Origin: a virus
Virus record (IMG/VR): IMGVR_UViG_3300021952_000025
Location: 1 to 32,934 of that record
Direction: 5' to 3' (one strand)
Length of the DNA stretch: 32,934 bases
Position numbers and translations under genes: made by a program. The notes under the pieces are model-generated. The model worked only from the letters and a program-made list of their open reading frames with translations. It was not told the DNA's origin and searched no databases. Positions 18,489-24,175 of this stretch are shown in pieces. Numbering within the stretch: position 1 is the first letter of the stretch; every line of letters begins with the position of its first letter.

Positions 18489-18497
18489 TTGCGCCCT

Positions 18498-18716
18498 ATG
18501 AACACACAAATAACCCCAGATGAGCGCCGACAACTGGCAGAAAAAGTTGGCATAAACGAGCAATATCTTTACCAGTGCCTTACTGGCAGGCGTGAGATGT
18601 CAGCATGGGAGGCCGTCAGAGTGGAGCAGGCCAGCGAAGGGCGGCTCACTCGCAAGATGGTGTGCCAGGGCAGCTGGCAGTCTATTTGGCCAGAGCTGGT
18701 GGAGGCAAAAGCATGA
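18498..18716 (+). CDS. YdaS/Cro-like transcriptional regulator
   Basis: A 72-residue protein with a helix-turn-helix: ERRQLAEKVGINEQYLYQCLTGRREMSAWEAVRVEQ. The pattern QLAEKVGIN.QYLYQCLTGRR is typical of the YdaS/Cro-like family. It is the first gene of the rightward operon, divergent from the leftward early operon with operator half-sites between them, so it probably acts as the Cro-type switch. The ATG at 18498 is favoured; a TTG at 18489 lies within the promoter. It ends in an ATGA overlap with the next gene. Confidence 0.88.
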   Translation: MNTQITPDERRQLAEKVGINEQYLYQCLTGRREMSAWEAVRVEQASEGRLTRKMVCQGSWQSIWPELVEAKA

Positions 18717-18916
18717 GCAGAGATGACATTATCAAAATGGCAGACGCATCAGGCATATCGTTGTACGGCATGGGTTTAGACAGAGAAAAGTTCATTCAGT
18801 ATCTTGAATCCTTTGCCACCCTTGTTGCTTTTGCCGAGCGTCAAGCAATTCTTGGACTTGCTGATTCATTGGGTTGGGTAAACATTGACCACATTACAGC
18901 AAGAGAACAAGCATGA
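18713..18916 (+). CDS. Small conserved phage protein, unknown
   Basis: A 67-residue protein (SRDDIIKMADASGISLYGM, then FIQYLESFATLVAFAERQAILGLADS). Small proteins with an 'RDDIIxMA..AG' start and a 'FA.LVA.AER.A' helix are very common next to phage replication genes; their role is unknown. The start at 18713 has GGAGGCAAAAGC in front and an ATGA overlap upstream; a longer frame exists but lies in the Cro-like gene. Its end overlaps the primase-helicase start. Confidence 0.8.
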   Translation: MSRDDIIKMADASGISLYGMGLDREKFIQYLESFATLVAFAERQAILGLADSLGWVNIDHITAREQA

Positions 18917-20961
18917 GCAATTTAACTTCTATTTTTCCTAATGGCTTCGCGGCTGCCACAGAGAGCCAAGACCTGATCAACCCAGAGGAATCGTTTCGTA
19001 GGCATTGTGAGGCTGCTGGCCTCTTGATTAAAGACCAGATCATTGCTGACGGTGAAATTCACCGTGTGGCGCATGTGTCGAGCAAGAAGGGTGCGGTTGA
19101 TGGTTGGTACATCTTGCACACCAGTGGCAAAGTGCCAGTTGGTATTGCAGGCTGCTGGAAAGAGCCTGTGTTTGAAGCCAAATGGATTGCAGATACTGGC
19201 CGTGCCATGTCATTCACTGAGCGCTTTGAGCATGATAAGTGGGTGGCAGAGGTAAAGGCCAAGAAAGATGCGGATCGGTTGGCCAATCAGGCCGTGGCTG
19301 CCGAACGTGCAGAGGATGAGGTGGGAACGTATGCCGATGCAAGCAATGACCATCCATACCTTGTGCGCAAGCATGTTGGCGCCAACGGGATCAAGATTGA
19401 CCGTGCAGGCAGACTGGTTGTGCCGGTGATCAATCAGGCAGGCGAAATATTGAGCTACCAAACCATTGATGCAGATGGCAACAAGCGGTTCCTCAAAGGC
19501 GGCAAGATTGAGGGCGGGTTTTACGAACTGCGTGGTAACCGGAAGATCGTGTTCATTGGTGAGGGCTTTGCCACTTGTGCGTCCATCCATGAGGCGACTG
19601 GCTACACCGTGCTGGTGGCGTTTGACTGCGGCAATTTGGCCAAGGTGGCCAAGAGCGCAAAAGAAATGTTCCCAGGCTCAAAGATTGTGATCGGTGCAGA
19701 CAATGACCAGTTCACGGAGGGTAACCCTGGCGTGACCAAAGGCCGTGCAGCTGCGGCGCTTGTGTTTGGCGAGATTGTGTACCCATCGTTTTCTGACTCA
19801 GACATGGTGGACAACAAGCCAACGGACTTCAATGACCTTCACTGCCTGCAAGGTTTGGATGCTGTCAAAGAGCAGATCGAGCGCGTAGCTGGCCCAATGC
19901 GCGACAAACTGGCGTTTGAATTCAGTCGTGCTGATAGCCTGCAACTGACCCAAATTAAGTGGATCGTGGATGACTACATCGAGGCAGACTCGCTGGCGCA
20001 AGTGTTCGGTGACCCAGGCGGCGGTAAGTCCTTTGTGTCCATCGACATTGCTTGTTGTGTGGCGACTGGAAAAGCATGGCATGGCCATGAGGTTAAGCAA
20101 GGCTCGGTGTTTTACATTGCCGGCGAAGGTCATAATGGTTTGGCCAGGCGGTTCAAAGCATGGCAGATTGGCAACGGCCAGACCTTGGACGGTGCGCCAC
20201 TGTACAAAAGCCACCGTGCGGCGCAGTTGTATGACGCCACAGAGGCTGCGGTGGTGGCTGAGTCCATCAAAGAGCTGTCTGCGCAGGCCGGCACGGTTCC
20301 ATCTTTGATCATCATTGATACCTTGGCGCGTAACCATGGGGGGGATGAGAACAGCACCCAAGACATGAATGCGTTTATTCAGCACCTTGACACCTACTTG
20401 CGCCAACCATGGAACTGCTGCGTTCTGGTGGTGCATCACTCTGGCGTGGCTGACAAAGATCGGTCTAGGGGTAGCACAGCCTTGAAAGGCGCATTGGATG
20501 CGGAGTACCGATGCCAGCTGGATTCGGGAACCAAAACCATCGCGTTTGAGTCCAAGAAGATGAAGGACGCAGAAATGCCTGCGCCTAAGAACTTCCAGAT
20601 CACCCAAGTGGACTTGCCAATCCAAGACAAGCACGGTTTAGCGGTCAAGGGCGCGTACCTGACGGCTGTGGACATTTCGGGCCTGATGGGCAACATCCAA
20701 AAGCGGGTGATTCTGTCAGGCAACCAGCGCATCGCACTGAACTGTCTGGTGGCCATCGAAGCCAAGAGAGCCAGCGAAGGTGTTGAGGGTTTTGCAGCCA
20801 TGGCTGACTACGATCAATGGCGTGAAAGCGCCAAAGAGCATGGTCTAAATTCACGCCGGTTTAAGGAATGTTTGGATGCGCTAATCAAGAAATCCATGGT
20901 TTTGGAGAACGCCGGCATGTACCGAACCGTACCGAAAGTTGAGTCAAGTGAGCCAGTTTGA
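18913..20961 (+). CDS. Primase-helicase (Toprim plus RepA-like ATPase)
   Basis: A 682-residue replication protein. The N-terminal part is a primase-like region; Toprim motifs follow at about residues 210-270 (FIGEGFATC with Glu217, and GADND with Asp263 and Asp265). From about residue 345 there is a RepA/AAA_25-type hexameric helicase: Walker A GDPGGGKS at 366-373 and Walker B LIIIDTLA with Asp469, then VVHHSG. It should unwind and prime DNA at the phage origin. The last coding bases already contain two copies of the GTACCGAA repeat (encoding MYRTVPKV). No phage DNA polymerase is visible, so the host replisome is probably recruited. Confidence 0.92.
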   Translation: MSNLTSIFPNGFAAATESQDLINPEESFRRHCEAAGLLIKDQIIADGEIHRVAHVSSKKGAVDGWYILHTSGKVPVGIAGCWKEPVFEAKWIADTGRAMSFTERFEHDKWVAEVKAKKDADRLANQAVAAERAEDEVGTYADASNDHPYLVRKHVGANGIKIDRAGRLVVPVINQAGEILSYQTIDADGNKRFLKGGKIEGGFYELRGNRKIVFIGEGFATCASIHEATGYTVLVAFDCGNLAKVAKSAKEMFPGSKIVIGADNDQFTEGNPGVTKGRAAAALVFGEIVYPSFSDSDMVDNKPTDFNDLHCLQGLDAVKEQIERVAGPMRDKLAFEFSRADSLQLTQIKWIVDDYIEADSLAQVFGDPGGGKSFVSIDIACCVATGKAWHGHEVKQGSVFYIAGEGHNGLARRFKAWQIGNGQTLDGAPLYKSHRAAQLYDATEAAVVAESIKELSAQAGTVPSLIIIDTLARNHGGDENSTQDMNAFIQHLDTYLRQPWNCCVLVVHHSGVADKDRSRGSTALKGALDAEYRCQLDSGTKTIAFESKKMKDAEMPAPKNFQITQVDLPIQDKHGLAVKGAYLTAVDISGLMGNIQKRVILSGNQRIALNCLVAIEAKRASEGVEGFAAMADYDQWRESAKEHGLNSRRFKECLDALIKKSMVLENAGMYRTVPKVESSEPV

Positions 20962-21208
20962 AACAAAGTTACCATGGGCTTGTACCGAAATGTACCGAAA
21001 TGGTAATTTGGTTACGATCAAAAAGTACCGAACTGTACCGAAATGTACCGGATTCGGTACATCGGTACATGGCAAATGTACCGAACCGTGTACCGAAATG
21101 TACCGAAACGTACCGAAATGTACCGAAGCACCCCCCCTCTGGTGTACCGAAACGTACCGAACGTATCTACAGATACGTTCAGGTTCGGTACATAAAGGGG
21201 TTCGGTAC
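20919..21208. repeat. Iteron-like array of GTACCGAA
   Basis: Thirteen exact forward copies start at 20919, 20929, 20982, 20992, 21025, 21035, 21078, 21090, 21100, 21110, 21120, 21144 and 21154. Three reverse copies (TTCGGTAC) start at 21053, 21184 and 21201, with near copies at 21045 and 21061. Neighbouring forward copies are mostly exactly 10 bp apart, one DNA turn. The array begins inside the 3' end of the primase-helicase gene and fills the 273-bp gap before RusA. Position and phasing suggest initiator binding sites at an origin. Reading frames across the array are repeat artefacts. Confidence 0.85.
21159..21180. repeat. 10-bp inverted repeat at the iteron array
   Basis: Arms GAACGTATCT (21159-21168) and AGATACGTTC (21171-21180) are separated by 2 bases. 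The first arm begins inside the last forward GTACCGAA copy and the second ends just before the reverse copies, so it marks the point where array orientation changes. With a 2-nt spacer it is more likely a protein-binding dyad than a transcript hairpin. Confidence 0.7.
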
Positions 21209-21234
21209 ATCCGCACTTTGGGGAGGGTTGGTTG

Positions 21235-21582
21235 ATGATAGAAGTTGAGATGGACATGAAGATCGTGTCGGTGGCCAACATGCGGTTGCATTGGGCGGCC
21301 AAGGCCAGACTGGTGAAGTCGCAAAGGCAGAAGACCAGAATGGCACTGGCAGCTGTTGCACAGTCCTATGGTGTGGAGATATTGCCAGTGACCGTGGTGT
21401 TGACCAGGGTGGCTCCAAGGAAGCTAGACGGCGACAACTTGCAGTCTGGGTTTAAAGCGGTCAGGGACGGTGTGGCTGACTGGCTTGGGATTGATGATGG
21501 CAGCGACATGATCGAATGGCAGTACAACCAAAGGTCTGGTGGGCCGAATGTGTACAAGGTTGAGATCGAGGTGATAACATGA
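21235..21582 (+). CDS. RusA-like Holliday junction resolvase
   Basis: A 115-residue protein with the RusA pattern: ANMRLHWAAKARLVKSQR at the start, then RVAPRKLDGDNLQSGFKAVRDGVADWLGIDDGSD, whose Asp residues (in LDGDN and IDDGSD) bind the catalytic metal. RusA enzymes cut Holliday junctions, here likely to resolve replication and recombination intermediates before packaging. The ATG at 21235 is preceded by GGGGAGGGTTGGTTG; the 3' end overlaps a tiny gene (ATGA). Confidence 0.88.
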   Translation: MIEVEMDMKIVSVANMRLHWAAKARLVKSQRQKTRMALAAVAQSYGVEILPVTVVLTRVAPRKLDGDNLQSGFKAVRDGVADWLGIDDGSDMIEWQYNQRSGGPNVYKVEIEVIT

Positions 21583-21734
21583 CGGTGTGTGCCACTTTGC
21601 AGTTGCCACACGTTTTTGTAAGGGCTGTTAAGCCAGCGCTCGAGGATGGTGATTTGCGGATTTTCTGGCTTTCTCCCGCAACTGGTCAAAACCCAAATCG
21701 AAGCCTTTACGTTTTTTTAGGAGTTTACAAGTGA
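21579..21734 (+). CDS. Tiny protein, unknown
   Basis: A 51-residue reading frame (TVCATLQLPHVFVRAVKPALEDGDLRIFWLSPATG, then NRSLYVFLGVYK). It joins RusA and the small terminase with an ATGA overlap at its start and a GTGA overlap at its end, which argues for translation. No family recognised. Confidence 0.6.
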   Translation: MTVCATLQLPHVFVRAVKPALEDGDLRIFWLSPATGQNPNRSLYVFLGVYK

Positions 21735-22246
21735 CTGATAACTTGGCGTCTGATGTGACGGTGAAAAAACATGCCGGTGGCCGTCCTGTCGTTTATGGCA
21801 TCGACAACCCATGTTGGCAGATACTGTGTGAGCAGATTTCGGAAGGCAAAAGTCTAAGCAGTGCGCTTAAAACGTCTGAGGGTATGCCATCGTATCAACT
21901 GGTGATGTTGATGCTTAGAAACAACCCTGAGTTCAGAGCCATGTACGAAAAGGCCGTAGAAAGCCGCGCAGACCGCTTGGCAGAGGAAATCATCGAACTG
22001 GCTGACCAAGAGATGCCAGAAGGCTTAGAAGGCCCTATGGCGTCTGCATGGGTGCAACAAAAGCGAATGCAAGTCGATGCACGCAAGTGGGTTGCAAGTA
22101 AGTTGAAGCCTAAGACTTATGGCGATCGCATAGATGTTGCCGTGACCGATAACCGGATCAGCGTGATGGATGCACTCAAAGAAGCAAAGCAGCGCGTCTT
22201 GAAGGACGAGAGCAATGTAGTTGATGCGGAAATCAAGGAAGCGTGA
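21731..22246 (+). CDS. terS: Terminase small subunit (Sf6 type)
   Basis: A 171-residue protein. It starts at GTG with TTAGGAGTTTACAA as Shine-Dalgarno. The N-terminal half is a helix-turn-helix-like region (ILCEQISEGKSLSSALKTSEGMPSYQLVMLMLRNN), and the second half has the Sf6-type small terminase pattern RADRLAEEIIELADQ and RMQVDARKWVASKLKPKTYGDRI. It recognises the packaging site and feeds the large terminase. Unusually, the large subunit lies 2.1 kb downstream, after a 465-bp non-coding region and an unrelated gene. Confidence 0.88.
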   Translation: MTDNLASDVTVKKHAGGRPVVYGIDNPCWQILCEQISEGKSLSSALKTSEGMPSYQLVMLMLRNNPEFRAMYEKAVESRADRLAEEIIELADQEMPEGLEGPMASAWVQQKRMQVDARKWVASKLKPKTYGDRIDVAVTDNRISVMDALKEAKQRVLKDESNVVDAEIKEA

Positions 22247-22711: not shown

Positions 22712-24175
22712 ATGCCAATCAACAACGCACTCACCCCTGAAGGCTTAAACGCGCTGGGTGCAGCGTTTGGTTTTTATCCGCAACTTAGGCGCAATAGGAC
22801 GGTGCAAGACGCGCAGGCCGCGTTAGACATTCCGGTGCAAGTGTTGCGTGGCCGAGTCGCCGCAACAGCTGGTATGCCGTCTGACATCTTGAACACATTG
22901 CGCACACCGATGCCGATGGAGATGTACGGCGAGACAGATTACGGGCCGCAGACGCAAGTGCCGTATGGCACGCAAGAATTGCTAAAGACTTTGCCATTGG
23001 CGCCTCAAGGCCCAGCCCAACAGGCTGCGGCCAATCTAGGCACATTGGCGCCAATAAGTCCAATGGAAGCGTTGCAGGCCGCAAGATTGGCAAGGCAGGC
23101 AGCGTTGGCTGGTGGCAAGACGGTTAAGCAGGCTGCCAAGATTGCGGGTGAAGAATTGAATGCGGCCATGATGGGTGAGCGTCAGGGTACGCTGCTTGGC
23201 GCGATAACGCCGCAACCGTTGTTTGCTGTGCCGCCATCTGGCCGCAGTGGTTTTGGCGCGTTCGATCCACGTTATGTCCCAAGGGTTCAAGAGCAGGCAA
23301 GAATGCAGGCAATGACCCGTGATGTGCAGTTGAACCCAAATGTGGTGACGCCGTCCACGGTTACGCTAGATCAATTTGCTGGCAGGCCGTTTATTACAAG
23401 CATGGCTGACAGAACGGCAGCTGGTGGTAAGTTGATGGGTATTGACAATGTGCAATTTAACCGCCCTGTTGAGTTTTTAGGTGGTCAGGATTACATGTTC
23501 AACAACCCTGGCTTAGTTTGGTCATCTGGAAATGTGCCTACAAATGCTTTGGTGAAGTATGCAAATGAAATTAAGCAGGCAACGGGACAGAATCCGATCT
23601 ATTTGCCTTGGCGCATGGCGCCAACTGGTGGTGACTTTGCGCAGATGACTGGCGAGACGATGTTGTCTTACGCTGATGCTGCCATGGGTAAGATGCAAAA
23701 AAGGCGACTGGATAAATCGATCAAAGAATTTTTGCCTGATTGGTCTGGTGTGTCTGATCCGGCAAGTGTTCAGCAGTTTAGGGATGCGCCGGACAAGACG
23801 CGCAAGGCCATCAAAACAATGATGGACAGGGATTTTCGAAATGAAGGTGGTTTGAACATTGGTGGCGCGAGGCTGGCTGTGTCTGACCCTGCGCAATTGG
23901 CCGCGCAAGAGGGTGGCGTTCAAAATGTCGGTGAGATATTTGCAGGCAGCCCAGTGATTAAATCAAGCCATCCGGCGTACCCAGGCGGTGTGCAGGGGCA
24001 GGGTTTAGGAACACTGGCTGAAGACTTGAACATTTTCCAGTTGTTGCCTGAAGTTGCGCAAGCGCGAAAAATTCCAGATGTTACAAATCCACGCGCAACG
24101 GATTTGAGGGCTTTGCAAATGAAGCCTTACTCTGGTGTGATCAGCAATGAGTTGCTCAAGCGCCTTGGCTATTGA
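22712..24175 (+). CDS. Unknown protein with virion-type conserved domain
   Basis: A 487-residue protein. Residues 1-170 are Ala/Pro-rich with a pattern seen in ejected or internal phage proteins (VLRGRVAATAGMPSDIL, then LGTLAPISPMEALQAARLA). The C-terminal part, from about residue 200, is a well-ordered domain with striking motifs: FITSMADRTAAGG, VEFLGGQDYMFNNPGLVWSS, IYLPWRMAPTGGDFAQMTGETML. I recall the same motif order in large phage proteins of unknown function; no catalytic assignment is possible. It lies between small and large terminase genes with no Shine-Dalgarno at its ATG. It could be a virion cargo protein. Confidence 0.8.
   Translation: MPINNALTPEGLNALGAAFGFYPQLRRNRTVQDAQAALDIPVQVLRGRVAATAGMPSDILNTLRTPMPMEMYGETDYGPQTQVPYGTQELLKTLPLAPQGPAQQAAANLGTLAPISPMEALQAARLARQAALAGGKTVKQAAKIAGEELNAAMMGERQGTLLGAITPQPLFAVPPSGRSGFGAFDPRYVPRVQEQARMQAMTRDVQLNPNVVTPSTVTLDQFAGRPFITSMADRTAAGGKLMGIDNVQFNRPVEFLGGQDYMFNNPGLVWSSGNVPTNALVKYANEIKQATGQNPIYLPWRMAPTGGDFAQMTGETMLSYADAAMGKMQKRRLDKSIKEFLPDWSGVSDPASVQQFRDAPDKTRKAIKTMMDRDFRNEGGLNIGGARLAVSDPAQLAAQEGGVQNVGEIFAGSPVIKSSHPAYPGGVQGQGLGTLAEDLNIFQLLPEVAQARKIPDVTNPRATDLRALQMKPYSGVISNELLKRLGY

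Follow-up and report, generated by a model that had tools for sequence, protein, structure and literature searches.

An iteron array that covaries with the C-terminal domain of a phage primase-helicase: a probable replication origin

A dense cluster of short repeats lies across the 3′ end of a phage primase-helicase gene, which raises the question of what the array is for and which protein recognises it. The window, meaning the whole stretch of DNA analysed here (32,934 nucleotides), comes from IMG/VR as a linear virus record. Its genes include those for a P22-type portal, a head-closure protein and a small terminase of the Sf6 type, and for comparison we gathered about 100 viral contigs related to it. 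We consider it very likely that positions 20919-21208 form the replication origin of this phage and that the adjacent primase-helicase is its initiator, acting through a C-terminal winged helix; both the binding and the initiation are inferred.

Iterons are clustered across the end of the primase-helicase gene

Exact matching identified 16 copies of the 8-mer GTACCGAA (13 forward and 3 reverse) in the array at 20919-21208 (plus strand), and no copy elsewhere in the 32.9-kb window. Two near copies were also found, GTACCGGA at 21045-21052 (forward) and GTACCGAT at 21061-21068 (reverse). The first two GTACCGAA copies are located within the primase-helicase gene, whose stop codon ends at 20961, and the array ends 26 bp upstream of the probable ATG (21235) of a small right-hand gene. 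With the near copy counted, the steps between forward copies are 10, 53, 10, 33, 10, 10, 33, 12, 10, 10, 10, 24 and 10 bp, including an exact 10-bp run at 21090/21100/21110/21120. The best-fit period of the whole array is about 10.6 bp (coherence 0.82 at 10.6, 0.15 at 10.0), indicating that most sites share one helix face without a strict 10-bp rule. Short direct repeats clustered beside an initiator gene are the mark of an iteron origin, and the array satisfies this criterion.

A preliminary description of the window, made from the sequence alone, had reported sixteen exact copies (13 forward, 3 reverse) plus two near copies, the first two copies within the primase-helicase coding end, and a 10-bp inverted repeat at the switch in orientation; all of these held. 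Its expectation of about 0.01 copies is right for equal base frequencies, while dinucleotide shuffles of the whole window gave a mean of 0.47 and a maximum of 2 copies of GTACCGAA against the 16 observed. Exact 10-bp phasing held for the run at 21090-21120, and steps within groups are mostly 10 bp, but it did not hold over the whole array; the claim that the sites face one side of the helix held in part, for most sites. The GC-skew check that it proposed showed no turning point at 21 kb; as skew tracks the direction of the genes in this linear fragment, the measure is uninformative here and was rejected as origin evidence.

Neither a sigma-70-like promoter nor a terminator was found within the array. 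Its AT content is 40-60% in 50-bp bins, with no clearly AT-rich unwinding element, and it is possible that the TA-centred palindrome described below stands in for one.

The primase-helicase carries a predicted C-terminal winged helix

The primase-helicase (18913-20961, plus strand; 682 aa) combines a Toprim_3 domain (residues 213-314), an AAA_25/RepA-type helicase domain (residues 335-513) and a C-terminal winged helix. The first two were matched by Pfam (AAA_25, 5e-38; Toprim_3, 2e-9), and the protein matched the PHROG family DNA primase at 6e-70. AlphaFold modelled residues ~603-672 (encoded at 20719-20928, plus strand) as an H-H-H-wing fold, with three helices and a two-stranded wing, at a mean core pLDDT of 86-94. 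Foldseek matches of this domain in the PDB were largely winged-helix domains; the E-values were weak (best 0.04) because the domain is small. The third helix of the model, SRRFKECLDALIK (residues 647-659, encoded at 20851-20889, plus strand), is the inferred recognition helix. A Pfam search with the C-terminal domain gave nothing over the cut-off, the full-length AlphaFold model (mean pLDDT 45) was too poor for use, and a search of bacterial genome contigs for relatives of the primase-helicase confirmed none.

The winged-helix prediction, together with the covariation shown below, makes it likely that this domain binds the iterons. An initiator should have a dsDNA-binding domain matched to its iterons, and this is met by prediction and covariation only, not by binding data. 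We also observed that the final wing strand (MYRT in class A) is encoded by the first iteron, 20919-20926, and occupies the same place in relatives, so that the domain and its inferred target share the same bases where the first iterons code for the wing strand.

Iteron class covaries with the C-terminal domain

Four iteron classes were identified: A, GTACCGA[AT]; B, [TG][TA]ACCGAA (also NWACCGAA); D, (C)GTCCGGA; and E, CATCCGAA. The class A consensus, [TC]GTACCGA[AT], rests on 716 sites that were chosen by the presence of GTACCG. Each class goes with its own type of recognition helix, SRRFKE or ARRFKE in A, SNRFRE in B, RNRFWD in D and NNRFWE in E. Across the ~100 related contigs, the iteron switches only where the C-terminal domain switches. 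Over residues 1-580, a dozen class-B proteins match that of the window at 97-99% identity, but in the C-terminal domain at only 48-49%; in the same phages the right-hand gene is 96-99% identical to the window's, and the arrays carry at least 12 B iterons and at most one GTACCGAA.

Iteron class was then compared with gene trees (65 loci; 60 for the small HTH protein). The C-terminal tree required 3 class changes, the minimum for four classes, and still 3 after removal of the residues encoded by iteron DNA; the remaining C-terminal coding part contained an iteron in 0 of 65 loci. The trees of the protein body required 14-19 changes, those of the right-hand gene 14-16 (23 with shuffled labels) and the TerS tree 16. 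Near-identical sequences inflate the body trees, which therefore serve less well for comparison than the right-hand gene and TerS. Among pairs with a C-terminal identity of at least 0.6, an iteron was common to both in 95-100%, and below 0.5 the same iteron was found in 0-1%, even at a body identity near 1.0. Together, these results show that the iterons covary with the C-terminal domain. As a side observation, three class-A arrays (L174, L049 and L195) mix GTACCGAA and GTACCGAT nearly evenly, L174 having mainly GTACCGAT; such arrays are possibly intermediates in iteron change.

Domain and array are exchanged as one cassette

Comparison of the window with the type-B locus L132 showed a DNA identity of mostly 86-97% along the gene, 38-66% over ~20.7-21.2 kb and again 80-97% in the gene to the right of the array. 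Identity falls only over this interval, demonstrating that the winged-helix coding part and the array have been exchanged together by recombination. The exchanged cassette, at approximately 20680-21215 (plus strand), comprises the winged-helix coding part, the array and the palindrome. Domain and array are inherited and exchanged as one unit because they are adjacent, the first iterons even encoding the end of the domain.

A compensated palindrome adjoins the iterons

The palindrome GAACGTATCTACAGATACGTTC (21159-21180, no strand assigned) is flanked by the last forward iteron on one side and by the first of the right-hand reverse iterons on the other, and consists of a 10-bp inverted repeat, GAACGTATCT-AC-AGATACGTTC. 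A palindrome, either perfect or with one or two mismatches, was found in all 101 of 101 arrays of the window's clade, adjoining the last forward iterons at a class-specific and nearly fixed distance. Compensatory double changes were found at 8 of the 8 stem pairs tested, among 22 distinct palindrome versions, and pairing was retained in 94% of cells compared with 59% after shuffling and 18-40% when slid. Because the palindromes were picked by symmetry, the pairing figure is inflated; independent support comes from the fixed position and the variety of the arms. In the clade related to Salicola phage CGphi29, a palindrome was found in 28 of 56 arrays against a background of 1.5%, its centre usually being CT[AT][AT]AG.

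Conservation of the palindrome with compensation is shown; its role is inferred. Pairing has been kept rather than arm sequence, which suggests a hairpin or cruciform over a protein operator. A terminator was rejected, as there is no T-run and the terminator scan did not flag the site.

Alternative explanations

The covariation might reflect mere hitch-hiking, with domain and array recombining as neighbours without interaction. In favour of this, the two are adjacent and are clearly exchanged together. However, the right-hand gene (21232-21582, plus strand; RusA-like by eye only, with no Pfam or NCBIfam match), our negative control, is about as close to the array as the domain is (median 53 bp to the last iteron), yet its trees require 14-16 changes, and it is 96-99% identical in many phages with different iterons. 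Moreover, 11 loci keep the class match over 700-1400 bp of inserted genes between domain and array. Linkage alone is therefore insufficient, and the class differences sit in the predicted recognition helix, which leaves hitch-hiking very unlikely. A packaging site (pac/cos) read by the small terminase is also very unlikely. TerS (21731-22246) starts only 520 bp to the right of the array, but a packaging site should follow the type of the small subunit and this array does not: TerS is independent of iteron class (16 changes) and is 70-71% identical to the window's in both A and B phages. An operator of the small YdaS/HTH_31-like HTH protein, encoded upstream of the primase gene at 18489-18716 and probably the Cro-like protein of the preliminary description, can be all but ruled out. 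That protein does adjoin the replication genes, but it is 92-97% identical in most class-B phages despite their different iterons, and its tree requires 17 changes compared with 20 for shuffled labels.

The primase-helicase might instead bind the array mainly for control (titration, handcuffing or late-gene timing), with the real start elsewhere. Iteron arrays serve copy control in plasmids, and this array borders the packaging genes, with the late genes to its right. Against this, no other cluster of GTACCGAA was found in the window or in related loci beyond stray single copies, the array has no promoter-like site, and a conserved palindrome at a fixed distance suits an initiation site; we consider the control reading unlikely. 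The comparative evidence thus supports the preliminary proposal of an initiator-bound origin, with binding and initiation inferred, and between the two binders it had named, primase-helicase or Cro-like protein, favours the C-terminal winged helix of the former. Its packaging and recombination-hotspot alternatives are weak, though the cassette itself is exchanged by recombination. A conserved primase-helicase without repeats, which it had named as refuting, was not encountered: every one of the 101 clade members has an array beside the gene, though the repeat is not always GTACCGAA.

Proposed mechanism and comparison with known origins

In the mechanism that we propose for the origin reading, the C-terminal winged helix would bind each GTACCGAA iteron, and several iterons on one helix face would gather and orient the primase-helicase. 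This would load the RepA-type hexamer at the palindrome, whose centre is TA[TC]A or CTWWAG and whose arms may vary provided that they pair. The DNA probably opens or forms a hairpin there, and the Toprim domain may make primers on one or both strands. Exchange of domain and array would then change the origin specificity of the phage in one step. That the protein binds the iterons, that replication starts here and what the palindrome does are all inferred, without binding, footprint or coverage data.

No description of the present system was found in the open-access literature searched. It appears to work like the origins of SaPI Rep, P4 alpha and PLE RepA, built on a Toprim primase and a RepA-type helicase, again with binding and initiation inferred. 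SaPI Rep and SCCmec Cch2 helicases recognise downstream iterons by their C-terminal domains (PMC7581432, citing Ubeda 2007), and the likeness is that of a self-loading helicase whose C-terminal domain goes with short iterons that closely follow the helicase gene. However, those are D5/DUF927-type helicases with AEP primases from staphylococcal islands, whereas in the phage protein a RepA-type (AAA_25) helicase is joined to a Toprim primase, and a conserved palindrome accompanies the iterons; the D5/DUF927-type core that defines SaPI Rep is not met, the helicase being AAA_25. In PLE RepA, the DNA-binding domain likewise changes together with the iterons, the initiator being otherwise conserved, and modules are repeatedly swapped, with the Odn nuclease as the probable driver (PMC8263062). 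PLE is a satellite with an N-terminal RepA_N domain, ~30-bp semi-palindromic iterons and two specificity groups, while the phage has a C-terminal winged helix, 8-bp iterons, four classes plus ~24 in relatives, and its own origin. The RepA_N criterion is not met either, as Pfam finds only AAA_25 and Toprim. The phage system thus fails the family-defining tests of both SaPI Rep/Cch2 and PLE RepA.

P4 alpha holds a primase, a helicase and a winged-helix origin binder in one chain and uses short iterons, a likeness shared by the phage protein. P4 differs in its SF3-type helicase and in an origin that is not at the 3′ end of the gene. The family criterion (an SF3/D5-type helicase with a related winged helix) is not met, the helicase being AAA_25, and the C-terminal domain profile had no sequence match to P4 structures. 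The lambda ori lies inside gene O (PMC6022878), and O origin specificity is type-specific; the phage iterons similarly overlap the gene of their initiator, but O is neither helicase nor primase and its binding domain is N-terminal. RSF1010 oriV has a RepA-type helicase, iterons and hairpins recognised by a primase (ssi). The phage resembles it in these elements and differs in having one chain instead of three separate proteins (RepA/RepB′/RepC); a link between palindrome and ssi is made by analogy only.

A bolder reading may be proposed, of which the parts taken jointly are slightly more apt to fail than to hold. It would see a widespread group of uncultured phages with a one-chain Toprim primase, RepA-type helicase and winged-helix initiator, in which cassette exchange rapidly turns over the origin specificity, the probable benefit being escape from competitors that target the origin or from incompatibility. 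The previously undescribed compensated palindrome (TAYA or CTWWAG centre) would be a hairpin start for both strands, and ~25 matched domain-iteron pairs would be a readable code for winged-helix DNA recognition. So far, only a few covarying initiator-iteron pairs have been known (PLE, SaPI, lambdoid O). The present comparison found four classes within phages up to 99% identical elsewhere, with ~24 more in relatives and a sharp identity threshold for switching. With so many protein-DNA pairs matched by nature, one can test how the target of a winged helix changes, how a phage changes its origin without loss of fitness, and whether origin-directed interference drives the change; the compensated palindrome gives the origins of these phages a new element that is concrete and can itself be tested.

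Distribution and local variation of the layout

Arrays were detected as at least 5 copies of a 7-mer within 300 bp, and 206 distinct C-termini were scanned; as background, 1 of 2420 upstream windows meets the copy threshold. In the Salicola-phage-related clade, an array was detectable with this method at 56 of 97 C-termini, with ~24 different iteron sequences in the same layout and a weaker domain-iteron association (partial rank correlation 0.215, p 0.001). Phages that have a name and share this layout are Alteromonas phage XX1924 (TGAACC), Idiomarinaceae phage 1N2-2 (TGTACCG), Salicola phage CGphi29 (TGTCCCC) and Roseobacter phage CRP-406 (TTCCAGCC).

Iteron loci without a primase match were considered as satellites with a stolen origin, and this was rejected, as most are contig ends. 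One of them, L051, has only two copies. In L059 (7201-8524), the array is accompanied by two small ORFs at the expected primase end and no primase match in the stretch, likely reflecting a larger insert between primase and array. In the window, a 487-aa protein without Pfam, PHROG or NCBIfam match is encoded at 22712-24175, between the small and large terminase genes. Inserts between primase-helicase and array were seen in L083, L213, L228, L153, L242, L248, L185, L011 and L190; the recurrent insert is a gene that resembles PAPS reductase/adenine nucleotide hydrolase (by eye, ...TCISFSGGRTSAYML...) and sits exactly between the stop of the primase-helicase gene and the array, and other inserts carry a methyltransferase-like gene (by eye) or a different ORF.
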